Part shown: piece by piece, positions 18,225-54,008 of the stretch
How the letters are laid out: every line of letters begins with the position of its first letter
How positions within the stretch are numbered: position 1 is the first letter of the stretch
Origin: Fasciola hepatica
Taxonomy: Eukaryota; Platyhelminthes; Trematoda; Plagiorchiida; Fasciolidae
Direction: 5' to 3'
DNA length: 64,000 nucleotides
Assembly: GCA_948099385.1 (NCBI GenBank)
Contig: CANUEZ040000140.1
Span: 4,402,001-4,466,000, forward strand
Notes under the pieces: generated by a model
Told to the model about the DNA's origin: nothing
The model's input: the letters and a program-made list of their open reading frames with translations, nothing else
The model's database searches: none
Program-made: the position numbers and the translations under genes

Positions 18225-18666
18225 TGTAACAAGAACGACAACGCACGGCAGGATACTTGTATTCCCACGGTCACACAAGTCAAGTCATGGAACACATACA
18301 GTCAATTATATAGGCCTTTTTCCAGACTGCGCAGCACCAAGATTGCTATTGCCGCTGCTTGAGCGATTCGGTTGCGTTCTGTCCAGTTGCCTGTGGCCGA
18401 TGGCTTGCTTCTCTTGACCGTCATTTCCCTTCGGTTGGTCCGACTGTCTCAGTTGACGGCTCAATCGGCAGCCCTTCACTTGAGCTATCTTGCTGGTTGC
18501 CGGAGATCCCGCTGCTTCCTCTCTGGTCGTCGGTATGCCTCCTTTTGCCTGCTTCGGGACGCCTCCGACATATTCGCCACCTGTTCTTTTGTCTGTGGCC
18601 CTCGTTTGGTTCGTTCGTTCGCCTTGATGTTTACGCCGTTCCCTCGCCCCAGCATTCCCTGTTACA
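18225..18666 (-). repeat. 3' LTR of the intact gypsy element
   Basis: 442 bp, aligned by eye with 22480-22921 without a mismatch. Its U3 part encodes the last 119 residues and stop codon of gag-pol. Confidence 0.97.
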
Positions 18667-21600
18667 CTCGCCCTTCCTTTAAAACATTCGGTCCGGACGT
18701 ACCAGGGTGCCAAGTCGCATCCGTTAACCCATTTGCCTTGTGGTCCTTGATCGATTTTGAAACTGGAATTCTTCCTCTCCAATACGGTGTAGGGTCCACT
18801 CCATCGTTTGTGGAACTTGCTAGCCCCCGGACCGGCCACTGCGGGTCTGTTACGATTCCTTACTTTTACCAGCTGTCCGGACATGAACGGATCCCATTTC
18901 TGTGTTTGGTTCCGTCTATCGTACCTTGCCTTGTTACGACTCTGAGCAATTCTCGTCTGTTGTACGGCCACTTTCTCTAGATGCCTCCGCTCGCGGGTTG
19001 TCAGAGGTTTATCATTCTTCATGTTGAGCCACACATCCAGTCGCGTTCTAGGTTCCTGCCCAAAAACCAGTTCAAACGGTGTCGTCCCCGTTGTTGAATG
19101 GTTCGTTGCGCGGTAACTGAGTAATATATCCGACAGTCCTTCTTGCCAATCACTTCCATGGTTATTTAGCCACTCCTTCAGCGTTCTGTTGAATCTTTCC
19201 GTCATTCCGTTTGCCTGGGGGTGGTAAGGCGACGTTCGTATTCGCCGGATCCTCCATTGTTCCAACATGTCTCGAAATTTCTTTGATTCGAAGCATGGAC
19301 CCTGGTCAGTGATGACCGTTTCTGGTACACCAAATCGCGCCACCACATTATCGACAAACACTCGAGAGACCGTATCGCCTGTTTGATCCGGTATCGGGAT
19401 TGCTTCCACCCAGCGAGACACGTGGTCAACCATTGTCATGATGTACCGGTTTCCAGTGACACTCACAGGTAAAGGACCAAAAATGTCCAAACCCCAGCTT
19501 TGAAAGACTCGTTGTGCTTCTATGGGCTGCATTGGCGGTGTAGCTGTTGCGTGCTCCCGGTTCCGTTGACAATCGGGGCAAGTTCGTATGTAGTCGTCAA
19601 CGTCGTGCCGCATCGTGGGCCAGAAGACTCTGCGCCGCAACAATTCGAAGACTCGTTGTTGTCCTATGTGAGCACTGTCGTGCGCTAGCTGTATTGCCTC
19701 CTCACGTACGGCCTCGGGAACAAAAGGCAGTCGTCTGGGTCGCAGACCCTGTCGCACATCAACGTCAACGAACAGCTTGCCATCTTCCGCATGCAATCGC
19801 TCCCAAATTTTCAGTAGGTCGCGCAGTGCAGGTGAGCTCCCTTCTGGTCTTGTTTTGGCTTGAAGATGTGAACAAACCGTCCGCACCAGACTGTCATTTC
19901 TTTGGTGGCTGAAAACGCCCTCATTTGACATTAGCCGATTCACTGGGATCGCCTCCGCCGGCAGTTGGTCGTCTGGGATCGGGCGGGATAATGCGTCAGG
20001 TATTTCGTTTTCTCGTCCGTTAACATGCTCGATTGTAAAGGTGAATTCCTGCAGGCGGTATGCCCACCGCGCCAACCTCCCTCTTGGATCTCTTGTTGTC
20101 ATCAACCACGTCAATGGCTTGTGATCTGTTTTGATACAGAAGTTCGTAGCAATCAGATATGTTCTCCACTTTTCCAGTGCCCACACGATTGCTAAGCATT
20201 CCCTTTCCGTGGTGGAGTATTTCCTCTCGGCACTTGTGAGTAGTCGGCTGGCGTACTCGATCACTCCAGACGGTTGTGACAATACTGCGCCAATTCCGAC
20301 GTCACTGGCATCCACAGCTACGGTGAATTTCTCATGCGGCTTTGGTATTGTCAAACAGTTTCGAGGGTTTGTTGCACTTTCCTTGAGTTTCCTGAACGCC
20401 GCCTCCGTATCTGACGTCCACTCGAATTTCTTATCCTTCCTCAGTAGTTGAAACAAGACACCAGCTTTCTGGGCAAAATTTGGCACAAACTTGGAGTCAT
20501 AGCCGACCAAGCCAAGGAAGGATCTCAGTTGGCGCTTTGATTTTGGCGAGGGGAAGCCCCTAATTGTCTCCGCTTTCTCGGGTAGGGGTTGCAGTTTTCC
20601 TCCTCCAACAATATGTCCCAAACAAACGATTTTGTCACGCGCTATCTGGCACTTCTTTGCACTCAACTTCAAGCCCGCCGATTTGATTCTCTCTAGGACT
20701 GCGCTTAATCTGGACACATGCCCGTCAATTGTCCTTGAAAATACCACAATATCATCCCCATACACCACAACACCATCCAGGTTCTCCAGTACCTGGAGCA
20801 GCAAACGCCTGAAAGTAGCCGGTGCGTTACACAACCCAAAAGGCATCCGCAGGAACTCATACTGCTTCCCGTTGACACAGAACGCTGTTTTCTCTCTGTC
20901 GCTCACGAGCACCGGCAGCTGCCAATAGCCCGACCTCAAGTCGATTAACGACAGCACCTTCGCGTCATGAAGCTGCTCAAATATCTCCTCGGTTAGTGGC
21001 ATTGGGAACGCATCCTTGATTGTGACGCGGTTGAGTTCCCGGAAGTCAACGCAAAATCTATACGTCCCATCCGATTTCCGCGTTAACAACACTGGTGAGG
21101 AATACGGGCTAGTGCTTTCCTGAATTATTCCCTTCGACAGCATGTCACGAACCTGCTTCTCAACTTCCGGTACGACTTTCCGCGGCAGCCTCCGATACAC
21201 TGGTTTGCACACCGCACCCGGCACCAAATTGATCCTGTGTTCTTGCCAATCGCAAAAGCCGTACTCATCATCTGGTGTCGAAAACAACTCCGCATACCTC
21301 TCGAGACACTGTCTGACACACGGGACTGAACAACCTGGAACCGAGGAAGCTTTTACGATACCAACGCGGTTCAGCCGGCCCCAACGGGATTGCAGCTCGA
21401 CATCCTTCTCCCCAACCCGCATTCGATGAGCTTCGAAATCAATTTTTGCTCCTACGCGTTCCAACAGATCAACCCCTACGATTGTCTCGGCGACCCCTTC
21501 AACCAGTAACATCTCATGCGTCACACGAACGTCGCCGATCTGAACCGTTAGCTGCTGCTTTCCCGCTACTCTCAGAGCCTCTCCTCCGACTGCACGCACT

Positions 21601-22454
21601 CGTATTTCGCATGGCCTCACTACGATTCCCTCAACGCGAGGTGTCACAGATACCCCAGCCCCCGTATCTACGACTGCCATTTTACGTTCGCCCCCAATTC
21701 TGATCTCAACCATAGGCACCCCCCTCGACTTGAATTTGGATAAAGAAAAGCAAGACGAGACGCGTTTTTCTGGACAAAATCGGGCGAAATGTCCTACCTT
21801 GCCACATGCAAAACACCTCCTTCGTGTTCCATGCGTCATTGCGTCATTATTGCGTTGTGTTTGTCGATTGAGTTCCAGTTTTAATTGTGCGATTTCCTGG
21901 CTCGTCTTCTGCAACGTGGACTCCAAATCCGATTGCTCTAATCGGGAAACTGTCACTTCTTCTTGGGCTGCACGGACAATCATAAACAGGCGTTCTGTAT
22001 CATTCACGCCGCACGCAATCGCCATTCTCAACCTGCCTTGGACATCCGGGGCCATGCTTTGAACGAAACGATCACGAACAAGGCGTGCCCTAGTTACGCC
22101 ACTTGCCCCGGGCAGCCCGATCGATAGTTGGCGCAACAGGTACTGATAGTGAACGACTGGGTCTTGGGTGCTGTCATAACGGGCCGTATTGAATCGGTCC
22201 ATTGCTTTCTGCCGATCACCTTCCTGTGTGAACTCCTTCACCAGCCCCGCACGGACCTCCCGATAAGTGGGGCTTGTTTTTCCCCCCATCTTCAGATCAT
22301 ACACCGCCTTGGCACGCCCAGTCAGCAGTGCCCCAAGCGCCGCCAACAAAGGTGTGTCTCCTTTTACTCCGTTGCATGCCGCTATCCTTTCAAAATTCGT
22401 GATCCATTCCTCCACATCCCCATCCGCGAACGCAACAGGCCAGGGAAACTTCAT
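18306..22454 (-). CDS. Gag-Pol polyprotein of the intact gypsy element (1382 aa)
   Basis: A single open frame without frameshift. The start is taken at 22454 (MKFPWPVAF), 25 bp after the LTR; an earlier in-frame Met at 22550 lies inside the LTR, too close to the TATA box to be in the transcript. Order: Gag with a CCHC knuckle (residues 214-227, CFACGKVGHFARFC); retropepsin (DTGA at 263-266, IVGVDLL near 325); RT (about 419-623, motif A Asp in LIDLRSGYW, C motif YGDD at 565-568); RNase H (VDASD near 715, KTDHKPL near 777); integrase with an H-x3-H-x29-C-x2-C finger (925-962), catalytic D990, D1050, E1086 (D-x35-E), and a GPY/F module (SGPYTVLERK near 1220). Residues 1264-1382 form a basic, Gln/Ser-rich tail encoded by the 3' LTR. 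No chromodomain or env seen. The glycine in YGDD is unusual for this superfamily. Confidence 0.95.
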   Translation of the reverse strand: MKFPWPVAFADGDVEEWITNFERIAACNGVKGDTPLLAALGALLTGRAKAVYDLKMGGKTSPTYREVRAGLVKEFTQEGDRQKAMDRFNTARYDSTQDPVVHYQYLLRQLSIGLPGASGVTRARLVRDRFVQSMAPDVQGRLRMAIACGVNDTERLFMIVRAAQEEVTVSRLEQSDLESTLQKTSQEIAQLKLELNRQTQRNNDAMTHGTRRRCFACGKVGHFARFCPEKRVSSCFSLSKFKSRGVPMVEIRIGGERKMAVVDTGAGVSVTPRVEGIVVRPCEIRVRAVGGEALRVAGKQQLTVQIGDVRVTHEMLLVEGVAETIVGVDLLERVGAKIDFEAHRMRVGEKDVELQSRWGRLNRVGIVKASSVPGCSVPCVRQCLERYAELFSTPDDEYGFCDWQEHRINLVPGAVCKPVYRRLPRKVVPEVEKQVRDMLSKGIIQESTSPYSSPVLLTRKSDGTYRFCVDFRELNRVTIKDAFPMPLTEEIFEQLHDAKVLSLIDLRSGYWQLPVLVSDREKTAFCVNGKQYEFLRMPFGLCNAPATFRRLLLQVLENLDGVVVYGDDIVVFSRTIDGHVSRLSAVLERIKSAGLKLSAKKCQIARDKIVCLGHIVGGGKLQPLPEKAETIRGFPSPKSKRQLRSFLGLVGYDSKFVPNFAQKAGVLFQLLRKDKKFEWTSDTEAAFRKLKESATNPRNCLTIPKPHEKFTVAVDASDVGIGAVLSQPSGVIEYASRLLTSAERKYSTTERECLAIVWALEKWRTYLIATNFCIKTDHKPLTWLMTTRDPRGRLARWAYRLQEFTFTIEHVNGRENEIPDALSRPIPDDQLPAEAIPVNRLMSNEGVFSHQRNDSLVRTVCSHLQAKTRPEGSSPALRDLLKIWERLHAEDGKLFVDVDVRQGLRPRRLPFVPEAVREEAIQLAHDSAHIGQQRVFELLRRRVFWPTMRHDVDDYIRTCPDCQRNREHATATPPMQPIEAQRVFQSWGLDIFGPLPVSVTGNRYIMTMVDHVSRWVEAIPIPDQTGDTVSRVFVDNVVARFGVPETVITDQGPCFESKKFRDMLEQWRIRRIRTSPYHPQANGMTERFNRTLKEWLNNHGSDWQEGLSDILLSYRATNHSTTGTTPFELVFGQEPRTRLDVWLNMKNDKPLTTRERRHLEKVAVQQTRIAQSRNKARYDRRNQTQKWDPFMSGQLVKVRNRNRPAVAGPGASKFHKRWSGPYTVLERKNSSFKIDQGPQGKWVNGCDLAPWYVRTECFKGRASVTGNAGARERRKHQGERTNQTRATDKRTGGEYVGGVPKQAKGGIPTTREEAAGSPATSKIAQVKGCRLSRQLRQSDQPKGNDGQEKQAIGHRQLDRTQPNRSSSGNSNLGAAQSGKRPI
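18667..18680 (-). other. Polypurine tract
   Basis: In element sense AAAGGAAGGGCGAG lies immediately before the 3' LTR, the expected place for the plus-strand primer. One C interrupts the purines. Confidence 0.6.
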
Positions 22455-22466
22455 CACGTGAGCTTG

Positions 22467-22478
22467 GTCACGGCACCA
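22467..22478 (-). other. Primer-binding site, tRNA-His-like
   Basis: In element sense TGGTGCCGTGAC follows the 5' LTR after one T. It is complementary to the last 12 bases (with CCA) of animal tRNA-His as I remember it (GTCACGGCACCA). The match stops after 12 bases. Confidence 0.65.
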
Positions 22479-22479
22479 A

Positions 22480-22921
22480 TGTAACAAGAACGACAACGCA
22501 CGGCAGGATACTTGTATTCCCACGGTCACACAAGTCAAGTCATGGAACACATACAGTCAATTATATAGGCCTTTTTCCAGACTGCGCAGCACCAAGATTG
22601 CTATTGCCGCTGCTTGAGCGATTCGGTTGCGTTCTGTCCAGTTGCCTGTGGCCGATGGCTTGCTTCTCTTGACCGTCATTTCCCTTCGGTTGGTCCGACT
22701 GTCTCAGTTGACGGCTCAATCGGCAGCCCTTCACTTGAGCTATCTTGCTGGTTGCCGGAGATCCCGCTGCTTCCTCTCTGGTCGTCGGTATGCCTCCTTT
22801 TGCCTGCTTCGGGACGCCTCCGACATATTCGCCACCTGTTCTTTTGTCTGTGGCCCTCGTTTGGTTCGTTCGTTCGCCTTGATGTTTACGCCGTTCCCTC
22901 GCCCCAGCATTCCCTGTTACA
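22480..22921 (-). repeat. 5' LTR of the intact gypsy element
   Basis: 442 bp, ends TGTAAC/GTTACA (perfect 6-bp terminal inverted repeat), same as 18225-18666. In element sense it carries a TATA box near its 3' end, so U3 is long and R plus U5 only about 60 bp. Confidence 0.97.
22561..22567 (-). promoter_or_regulatory. TATA box in the 5' LTR
   Basis: TATATAA on the minus strand, 88 bp before the LTR end, is the likely Pol II core promoter of the element. Transcription would start about 25-30 bp downstream, leaving a leader of well under 100 nt before the gag start at 22454. The matching TATATAA in the 3' LTR (18306-18312) contains the gag-pol stop codon. Confidence 0.6.
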
Positions 22922-22925
22922 CTAT
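22922..22925. repeat. Target-site duplication (right)
   Basis: CTAT directly after the LTR end; pairs with 18221-18224. Four bases are shared; the fifth differs (C versus A). Confidence 0.85.
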
Positions 22926-23189: not shown

Positions 23190-23305
<116 letters not shown>

Positions 23306-23502
23306 CTAAGATCTAAGTTTAATAGTCTGGAGTGTGAATGGATACTCTTCATTGAACAGCCCACAAATAAATCACAACTGCAATTTCCCATAGTCATTCG
23401 TGTCTGGGTCACTGGTAACCCAAAGAACAACGAGGCTGTATGTGCAAGCATTCATATTGATAGTAAGCATTATGTTAACGTATGGGCGAGATTTCCCCGG
23501 AA

Positions 23503-23545
23503 GCACACGACCGGTTTCGCGGTTGTTGTCACTCATCAGGTATGC
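23503..23545 (-). ncRNA. Minimal type I hammerhead ribozyme candidate (left arm)
   Basis: On the minus strand: stem I GCATAC (23545-23540) pairs with GTGTGC (23508-23503) at all six positions counting one G-U. Core CTGATGA at 23539-23533, stem II plus loop 23532-23519 (GTG/CGC, three pairs with one G-U), GAAA at 23518-23515, loopless stem III ACC/GGT, and C17 at 23509. All invariant core bases are present. The differences from the right arm are largely CpG-type changes. Confidence 0.65.
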
Positions 23546-23614
23546 GTACCTAGTGAACATATAACATCGGAGTGTACAAGTATGAAGACGAGTGGGCAGA
23601 GGAGTACCGGGTAC

Positions 23615-23657
23615 GCATACCTGATGAGCTGCAACAACCGCGAAACCGGTCGCGTGC
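23615..23657 (+). ncRNA. Minimal type I hammerhead ribozyme candidate (right arm)
   Basis: Contains the conserved core in the right order: CTGATGA (23621-23627), a short stem II with loop (23628-23641), GAAA (23642-23645), a loopless stem III ACC/GGT (23645-23650), and the cleavage nucleotide C at 23651 (GTC). Stem I pairs GCATAC (23615-23620) with GCGTGC (23652-23657), five of six pairs. Hammerheads with a very short stem III are known in schistosome Sm-alpha repeats and in Penelope-like elements (established). Stem II here is weak: GC/GC, one mismatch, then G/C. Confidence 0.65.
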
Positions 23658-23709
23658 TTCCGGGGAAATTTAGTCCACACCTCACCATACTACTTACTAT
23701 CAATATATA

Positions 23710-25290
23710 TGCAGTATTATACGGAAGCACAAAAATGCGATATACACGGTTATTCAGGAGGAATTTGTTCTGCTGCTCGTAGCCTTGTACGGCGCATATC
23801 GTGCCTAAAGCTTGTGAGGCCAGCAAATCATGATTGTTTCTACAGTGACACTCTGCCCTGTCGTAAGTATCCTCTATGGAAATACTCAATTTTCTCTCTT
23901 TGAAATTACGGTAGTTTTGCCTGTTGGATATGTGAAGGTCTGTTTTTGTGTCTTAACTTACAAAAGGTTTTTAATTTTAAGTCGCAGTCTCCTGATTATC
24001 GCTTCGATCATACCGCTAACTAAACCCTACAGGAACATTCCGGTGACCGTCACAGAGGGGCCTGGAAAAGCTCTCAGACCGTAGTACAGTTGCATAGTCA
24101 AACAATAAATATGGGTCTTATCTTTGTGGAGTGCGAAAGTGGGCATTAGTGTTACTCAGTGCGAATCTACTCCAATTTGCTAGGCTTAATCATACACAAA
24201 ATTATAAACAAGTGAGCAGCCCTGGGTTGCCGTTTATTAAAGTTAGAGTGATTGGAAATCAGAAAACATAACTAGAAATAATGCTGACTATGCAATCATG
24301 AGCTAAGTGTACAGACTGCTCGCGTTTTCCGGATGAAACGCTAATTATCGTAGGTGCTTTCGCTTAGTTGCTACAATCGAATTCTTCAAGAAGAGCGAAG
24401 AGAAAAGACCGAGGAGTGCCAGCCGCGTGTTTGCTTGGCTCTTGCAGTTCCTTGAAACTGAGAATCAATTCCTGGGTTCGAACAGCAGCTCCAAAGTTTT
24501 CGGAACTCTAGTGGCATCCATTGTAGAGGGTACCCGGTCACCTGGAGTAAAAAAGGCCTGACTACAAAAAAAGACGTTTAAAGTCCCTTCGAAATAAAGA
24601 AATGATTTTTTAGATAAATGCCTGATTGAAACCACTTTATATGCGTGAAAAATAAATTGATGACAAGATCTCGCCTAGAAAGAAGGTAGAAAATCCGTAT
24701 TAAAGTGCATAAAACAAGAGCAACAAATGTTCGTGATATAACTCGAGAGAGATCGGTCTCTAATGGGAACAAATATGCAAAACGAAATATATGGTTTCAT
24801 GGTGCAGGGTGTGACAGTTTACATTTGAAGCGAGACATTGGGGGAGCTGTTGTATTTGACCTCCCAACCCGAAAAACCGTGAAGGTTCAGCACGAGATGT
24901 AGGGTTTTCCGGTGCTTACGGAGCTGGTATCGGTGGAGTTTTCTTTCCACTCACCCCAGTGAACCACTTAGTTCAAGTTCAGCCAGGTAAAGGGGTGTCT
25001 TGGTCAATCTTTCCAGTGGTTTATGTATCCTTCGTATGGGTAACTAGCTCTCGCTCAGTGAGTCATGAATGCGAAAACTTACCTGAGTGCACTCGGGTTC
25101 CTGTCGTTGGTGAAAGTGTATTTTGATAGCGGTGCTTGCTTTCTCTAAAACTCTGGGATTCTAGTATTGGTGTCAAGAAGGGACAAATGGTCAGAGCATC
25201 AACCAATAGTTGCAAAGCGATAAAATAGGATAGATAAGGGCAGTGTGGAGATAACTTCTGAGTGGGGAGCATAAACTTAGGGACAAATAA
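23710..25290. other. No gene recognised
   Basis: Only short open frames. One box-B-like GGTTCGAAC occurs at 24477, without a convincing A box. Confidence 0.4.

Positions 25291-51538: not shown

Positions 51539-51597
<59 letters not shown>

Positions 51598-53882: not shown

Positions 53883-54008
<126 letters not shown>

Follow-up and report, generated by a model that had tools for sequence, protein, structure and literature searches.

The DNA examined here, a 64,000-nucleotide stretch of the Fasciola hepatica genome that is referred to below as the window, contains two hammerhead ribozyme motifs that lie head to head, one on each strand, in the arms of an inverted repeat. This locus raises the question of what kind of element carries the two ribozymes, and by what route its two oppositely oriented halves came to be joined.

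Hammerhead motifs in the inverted repeat

The inverted repeat consists of two 103-nt arms (23448-23550 and 23610-23712) with a complementarity of 85%; the preliminary description had recognised the repeat itself, but its figures of 97 bp and about 87% identity do not agree with these measured values. A type I hammerhead with a complete core motif is present in each arm, confirming the head-to-head pair that had been proposed. The plus arm (23602..23674) matches the Rfam model RF02275 (Hammerhead_HH9) with 31.5 bits and the minus arm (23486..23557, minus strand) with 30.8 bits, corresponding to E-values of 2.5e-6 and 4.3e-6, respectively, in a 281-base search, and of 0.00057 and 0.00099 when all of the window is searched. 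The Rfam check that had been suggested at the outset, once run, gives E-value matches in both arms, but both scores lie below the gathering score of 52, and no family passes when the whole window is scanned at gathering scores. The window has two occurrences of the pattern CTGATGA..CGAAAC, one per strand, at 23514-23539 (minus) and 23621-23646 (plus), compared with a chance count of 0.08, and none of 100 shuffles gets to two occurrences. The predicted cleavage sites, after 23651 on the plus strand and after 23509 on the minus strand, are consistent with the sequence, and the loopless 3-bp stem III (ACC/GGT) is present as previously stated. Stem II, which has 4 bp (GCGG/CCGC) in the family unit described below, shows three changes in the window arms; its supposed CpG decay accounts for one of them (279 C>T, a CpG transition), but not for 281 G>A and 280 G>T.

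A direct transcript of the locus is predicted to form the long hairpin that had been anticipated (-155.6 kcal/mol, versus a shuffle mean of -69.5), and the two hammerhead motifs, folded as isolated pieces, do no better than shuffles. A tblastn search of the window with one protein of a Penelope-like element (PLE) of the same genome gave a best E-value of 0.13, in agreement with the earlier view that no PLE-type reverse transcriptase (RT) is present there, and ARAGORN found no tRNA in the window. Exact-core scans of viral and prokaryotic contig collections returned none, as expected for such collections. Weak Rfam matches to mir-297, mir-1277, MIR7533 and a pestivirus element were taken as TA runs or palindromes.

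A 301-bp retrozyme family in arrays and dispersed copies

A search of the genome (1.5 Gb in 656 contigs) with the window element gave 2996 first-look candidates, 40 of which were scored. A DNA search with 141 bases of the unit gave 0 candidates, probably owing to words that are too frequent in the genome, and does not argue for absence. The copies that were fetched define a 301-bp unit bearing a hammerhead with a 4-bp stem II and a loopless stem III; genomic copies conserving the hammerhead core, which the preliminary description had left to a search, are thus present. The unit forms head-to-tail arrays and is also found as insertions in (TA)n tracts elsewhere in the genome. Four of seven 9.9-kb stretches around matches consist of the unit from end to end, each in one orientation, one contains the unit from 2.25 kb on, another has it in the first 3.6 kb, and the seventh holds dispersed copies only. 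The GC content of the unit is 0.46, its longest stop-free run over three joined units is 126 codons, and no LTR was seen in the family alignments. A protein with RT and GIY-YIG domains is absent from the unit and is found in separate elements, for example the PLE L070 considered below. In the copy L088, RF02275 matches with 41.2 and 37.7 bits, which are likewise below the gathering score of 52. The insertions L016, L021, L024 and L058 show no substitutions relative to the majority sequence and are, for this reason, regarded as young.

These dispersed and tandem copies uphold the retroelement origin that had been assigned to the ribozyme arms, and the window element and its relatives are a metazoan-type retrozyme, an element of a known kind. 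In the available text of Cervera and de la Pena 2020 (PMC7229834), metazoan non-LTR retrozymes are described as tandem units of 150-450 bp with type I hammerheads, for which PLEs are proposed as the movers; the present family resembles them in its 301-bp hammerhead unit, its arrays, the apparent lack of an LTR, a GC content below 50%, and the occurrence of PLEs in the genome.

Two fixed outer ends in (TA)n tracts

The outer end of the dispersed copies lies mostly at one of two positions of the unit: site A (..CTTACTATCAATA), close to unit position 55, or site B (..TAGTGAACATAT), close to position 213. In either case (TA)n follows. Patterns of the exact ends detect 345 A ends and 103 B ends genome-wide, with none for the reversed-pattern control. 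The circular unit contains just two occurrences of the tetranucleotide ATAT, at 52 (site A) and 209 (site B); both motifs are predicted to be unpaired in the circle with at least 0.93 per base, an openness equalled by 7-8% of the 4-nt windows. Twenty copies have a single orientation, 10 of them ending at A and 10 at B, with 5' ends that are variable in 20/20. Since TA is present at the 3' end in 20/20 and at the 5' end in 16/20 of these copies, the (TA)n tract probably predates the insertion. Target-site duplications (TSDs), which in metazoan retrozymes exceed 4 bp wherever there are any, are not definable for the 301-bp family inside (TA)n. Multiple insertions with TA between them are found at a single locus in L016, L018 and L025.

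Referred to this unit, the window element is wider than the interval 23454..23706 originally assigned to it, extending over 411 bp from the end of a (TA)n tract at about 23296 to 23706. The arms, which had been interpreted as a pair of terminal repeats, are in fact partial, overlapping copies of one 301-bp unit joined head to head: a minus copy at 23296..23550 (unit 213 -> 260), with site B as its outer end, and a plus copy at 23550..23706 (unit 200 -> 55), with site A as its outer end, which meet at the inner junction (23546..23556) with a 1-nt overlap. The 111-nt (TA)n tract on the left (23192..23302) is the presumed insertion target, as the dispersed copies likewise lie in (TA)n; on the right, at the site A end (..CTTACTATCAATATATAT; 23693..23710, plus strand), the TA stretch is merely short. 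Two other (TA)n tracts of the window (51541-51594 and 53887-54008) have no adjoining retrozyme or PLE and represent unoccupied potential targets.

About 270 bp ahead of the (TA)n tract of the retrozyme ends a Ty3-type LTR element (window 18225-22923, minus strand), whose two 444-bp LTRs are identical and whose open gag-pol frame has 1416 codons. The closest named relatives of its polyprotein are from Dicrocoelium dendriticum (62-68%), which, like the schistosome relative of the PLE protein described below, makes a trematode host probable, and the identity of its LTRs indicates that the element is very young.

Head-to-head copies of the retrozyme

Two samples of copies were analysed, namely, 30 loci ranked by similarity to the window element, from which 4 array edges were dropped, and the first 30 of the 103 exact B ends. 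Without the 4 array edges and with 4 duplicates counted once, the 60 loci give 52 unique dispersed insertions, 32 of which are inverted (16/26 and 20/30 in the two samples, respectively). All 32 inverted insertions have the same orientation, minus-then-plus. Their outer ends are A and B in 26 cases, A-A or B-B in none, and the remaining 6 have one end elsewhere; among the 26 A-B insertions, A is on the left in 13 and B in 13, and TA runs are present at both outer ends in 25. In a coordinate check of 100 of the 345 A ends, 13 are faced by an exact B end within 1 kb and none by an exact A end, and no pair of A/B ends faces away. The 30 B ends in this check are the loci of the second sample, and new data are added only on the A side (100/345); under an independent draw at the listed 100:30 ratio, the probability of 13 mixed pairs out of 13 is about 1e-6. 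A later look at L088, a 2.4-kb pair, revealed one A-A head-to-head insertion, and the A-B rule therefore has exceptions.

The inner arm ends are scattered: across the 24 two-segment A-B copies, their separation follows a uniform distribution (KS p 0.61). The overlap at 24 junctions averages 2.29 nt versus 0.67 by chance, with no value as large in 10,000 simulations; this mean was drawn from 29 two-segment inverted copies after exclusion of the 4 whose junctions contain inserted bases and of one whose overlap is 23 nt. Among 29 two-arm copies, 14 of 107 arm variants are common to both arms, compared with 3.4% in re-paired arms (0/2000 permutations), 5 of the 14 being one common polymorphism, 186A. 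As variants are shared beyond the level of re-paired arms, the two arms of one insertion were probably copied from the same RNA. The arms in L017, L065 and L067 are longer than one unit.

The window copy, preceded by (TA)55, is an A-B insertion like the other copies, but an old one. Its minus copy departs from the family majority sequence at 26 of 255 positions and its plus copy at 6 of 157; in the region present in both arms, 10 changes are found in the left arm only, 6 in the right arm only, and none in common. Taken alone, the window copy is without the shared-template signal.

Penelope-like elements and a second hammerhead family

The genome contains 90 GIY-YIG matches, including intact RT/GIY-YIG frames in 2.75-kb tandems, and neighbouring matches less than 8 kb apart are arranged minus-plus in 10 cases, plus-minus in none, and in the same direction in 7. 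The protein encoded by one such PLE (L070) is 821 aa long and has RVT_1 and GIY-YIG domains; its best named relative is an RT of Schistosoma japonicum (44%). Nine of the 10 minus-plus pairs were examined at their ends; the tenth, a second pair on C8, appears to be a duplicate of the first one, from which it is 15 kb distant. In seven of the nine (C107, C41, C47, C139, C72, C182 and C100), a single TSD of 12-15 bp surrounds the palindrome, and one end is at site 1, the end of the pLTR, with the other at site 2, which lies 66 nt beyond it, some 54 nt inside the ORF. The TSD length is that of the longest shared string and may take in 1-2 element bases; in C47 and C139, where the BLAST end ran into the flank, the TSD decided the end position. 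The single TSD shows each of these palindromes to be the product of one event. In the C67 pair, which is inserted in (TA)n, one terminus is at site 1 and the other 43 nt beyond it. One terminus of the C8 pair is at site 1 as well, and the other stops 170 nt before that site.

Neither covariance models run at E 1 nor a pattern search detected a hammerhead in L070, and none was recognised by pattern search in the C67 PLE (L085). The likeness between the PLE start sites and the retrozyme sites A and B is not significant (p 0.067); ATAACAT is found right at the start point in both site 1 of L070 and site B of the retrozyme. The element L085 (G000:C67:7673650-7679050), together with L083 and L084, is a head-to-head PLE pair with (TA)n on both sides and, being flanked by the retrozyme's own target, is a candidate for the helper family.

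A second hammerhead family consists of a 451-bp unit in tandem (L090, G000:C151:4296150-4297060). One head-to-head copy of this family, with a TSD of 12 bp, ends at two different sites that lie about 40 nt from each other; two of three further loci end near one of those sites, and the third near the other. The SM-alpha repeats of schistosomes are SINE-like and have tRNA-like promoter boxes. Similar A and B boxes of tRNA type are seen, judged by eye, at the border of the 451-bp unit, and ARAGORN run on part of the unit reports no tRNA; the family is perhaps an SM-alpha-like, Pol III-transcribed retrozyme. In another copy of this family, L093 (G000:C116:15218650-15219500), a short hairpin-like piece (CAGTGGTAACA) is situated between the element and the right-hand TSD.

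Discussion

The results described above make it likely that the window locus is an old head-to-head integrant of a 301-nt retrozyme, generated by two-strand priming at sites A and B on one RNA. In the predicted course of events, tandem units would be transcribed and the transcripts cut by their hammerheads, probably acting as dimers in view of the loopless stem III, and the monomers would then be ligated into circles, by analogy with the published retrozyme pathway; the RNA template is probably circular. A Penelope-like RT/GIY-YIG protein may introduce a staggered break into the (TA)n tract, whereupon both DNA 3' ends (..TATAT) would anneal to the sole two AUAU motifs of the RNA, at nt 52-55 (A) and 209-212 (B), each priming its own minus-strand copy. 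The two cDNAs would halt at variable points and subsequently be joined by microhomology. This would place a minus copy and then a plus copy between (TA)n flanks, A forming one outer end of the pair and B the other. Since one RNA circle has a single A and a single B, insertions of the A-A and B-B types would be rare. The link to PLEs drawn in the preliminary description is plausible; the PLEs of this genome show a like head-to-head geometry. We infer that a PLE may move the retrozyme from their presence in the same genome, the same geometry, and the similar TSD in the 451-bp family. Against the proposed mechanism weigh the A-A insertion L088, the 6 inverted copies with an end elsewhere, the deviating PLE pairs on C67 and C8, the failure to recognise a hammerhead in L070 or a significant likeness at its start sites, the lack of common variants in the window copy itself, and the share of 186A among the common variants of the other copies. 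As for the machinery, a single complex of the Penelope class may hold both ends of the staggered break on one RNA and start a cDNA on each strand, using two sites dedicated to this purpose; we regard this proposal as evenly balanced between right and wrong.

Other routes to such a palindrome need to be weighed against two-strand priming. Snap-back or self-priming, with the opposite copy being started from a first cDNA, or from an antisense RNA, that has folded back on itself, would also give a palindromic head-to-head product, and rotifer PLE copies are often head to head, those of Adineta vaga being ascribed to self-priming, probably on antisense RNA, in the accessible part of PMC3846280. However, this route predicts nearly equal inner positions, whereas those of the 24 two-segment A-B copies are scattered uniformly round the circle, and it predicts neither the combination of A and B as outer ends nor TA on both sides; it appears improbable for the family studied here. 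Double insertion into one (TA)n tract, or recombination of opposite copies at TA repeats, might be expected of a target that draws many copies, as at the three loci with several TA-separated insertions, but the arms of the inverted copies abut directly with no TA between them, they are invariably minus-then-plus (32/32), A-A and B-B are missing among the 26 pairs, the PLE and 451-bp copies have one TSD round the whole palindrome, and the arms share variants. We consider an origin from two insertions even more doubtful than snap-back.

In the twin priming of LINE-1, the second target end primes the same RNA, and an inverted arm with microhomology results. Two-strand priming by such other machinery, with the likeness to PLEs being convergent, would therefore yield inverted copies as well, and the tie between PLEs and the retrozyme is indirect here. 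In contrast to LINE-1, both starts are fixed in the present family and inverted copies are the majority in either sample. The PLEs of the same genome follow the same two-site rule and have a TSD length similar to that of the 451-bp family, and a machinery other than that of a PLE, for example of LINE type, is rather unlikely. An origin as a foldback DNA transposon or MITE, with terminal inverted repeats and with hammerheads present by chance, is barely credible: a 14-bp inverted repeat (ATATTGATAGTAAG) does lie at the edges of the interval first delimited, but arms, lengths and inner junctions vary among copies, the single-orientation copies end at A or B in equal numbers with variable 5' ends throughout, and head-to-tail arrays are present. 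Neither constant termini nor a constant palindrome was found, and this class was rejected.

The two-strand priming of the 301-bp retrozyme is worth comparing with what has been described for related systems. The insertion into (TA)n, the two fixed ends and the head-to-head copies distinguish this family from the metazoan retrozymes of PMC7229834, in whose available text a term search found neither 'inverted' nor 'microsatellite'. As far as the open-licence literature was searched, no description of this integration signature was found, and it is new for retrozymes. According to the accessible portion of PMC11167929, the purified PLE of Anolis (Poseidon) cleaves and extends both strands, starting at two internal sites, and its start site does not match the cleaved DNA. 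The PLEs, as far as the same portion and that of PMC3846280 describe them, and the retrozyme are alike in having two start sites, AT-rich targets, and tandem and head-to-head copies, whereas the retrozyme apparently encodes no protein and its start sites match the TA target; the PLE of this genome, L070, is without a recognisable hammerhead. The SM-alpha repeats and W-elements of schistosomes, in the part of PMC8490949 available, are likewise fluke repeats with type I hammerheads but with no head-to-head or two-site pattern.

Both the enzyme that moves retrozymes and the integration mode of PLEs are left open in the available texts of PMC7229834 and PMC11167929. The hundreds of marked ends in this genome provide quantitative in vivo rules, namely, two sites, one per strand, a fixed orientation, and one TSD around the palindrome, which fit the in vitro behaviour of a PLE protein. 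These rules make the integration mechanism testable in a simple reaction that combines a (TA)n duplex with the 301-nt RNA, and they offer for the head-to-head PLE copies an alternative explanation to self-priming. If the proposed mechanism is true, head-to-head insertions would be a regular product of Penelope-class integration, not an accident, and retrozymes would parasitise this paired reaction, to which they need contribute no more than a small RNA circle with two start sites.
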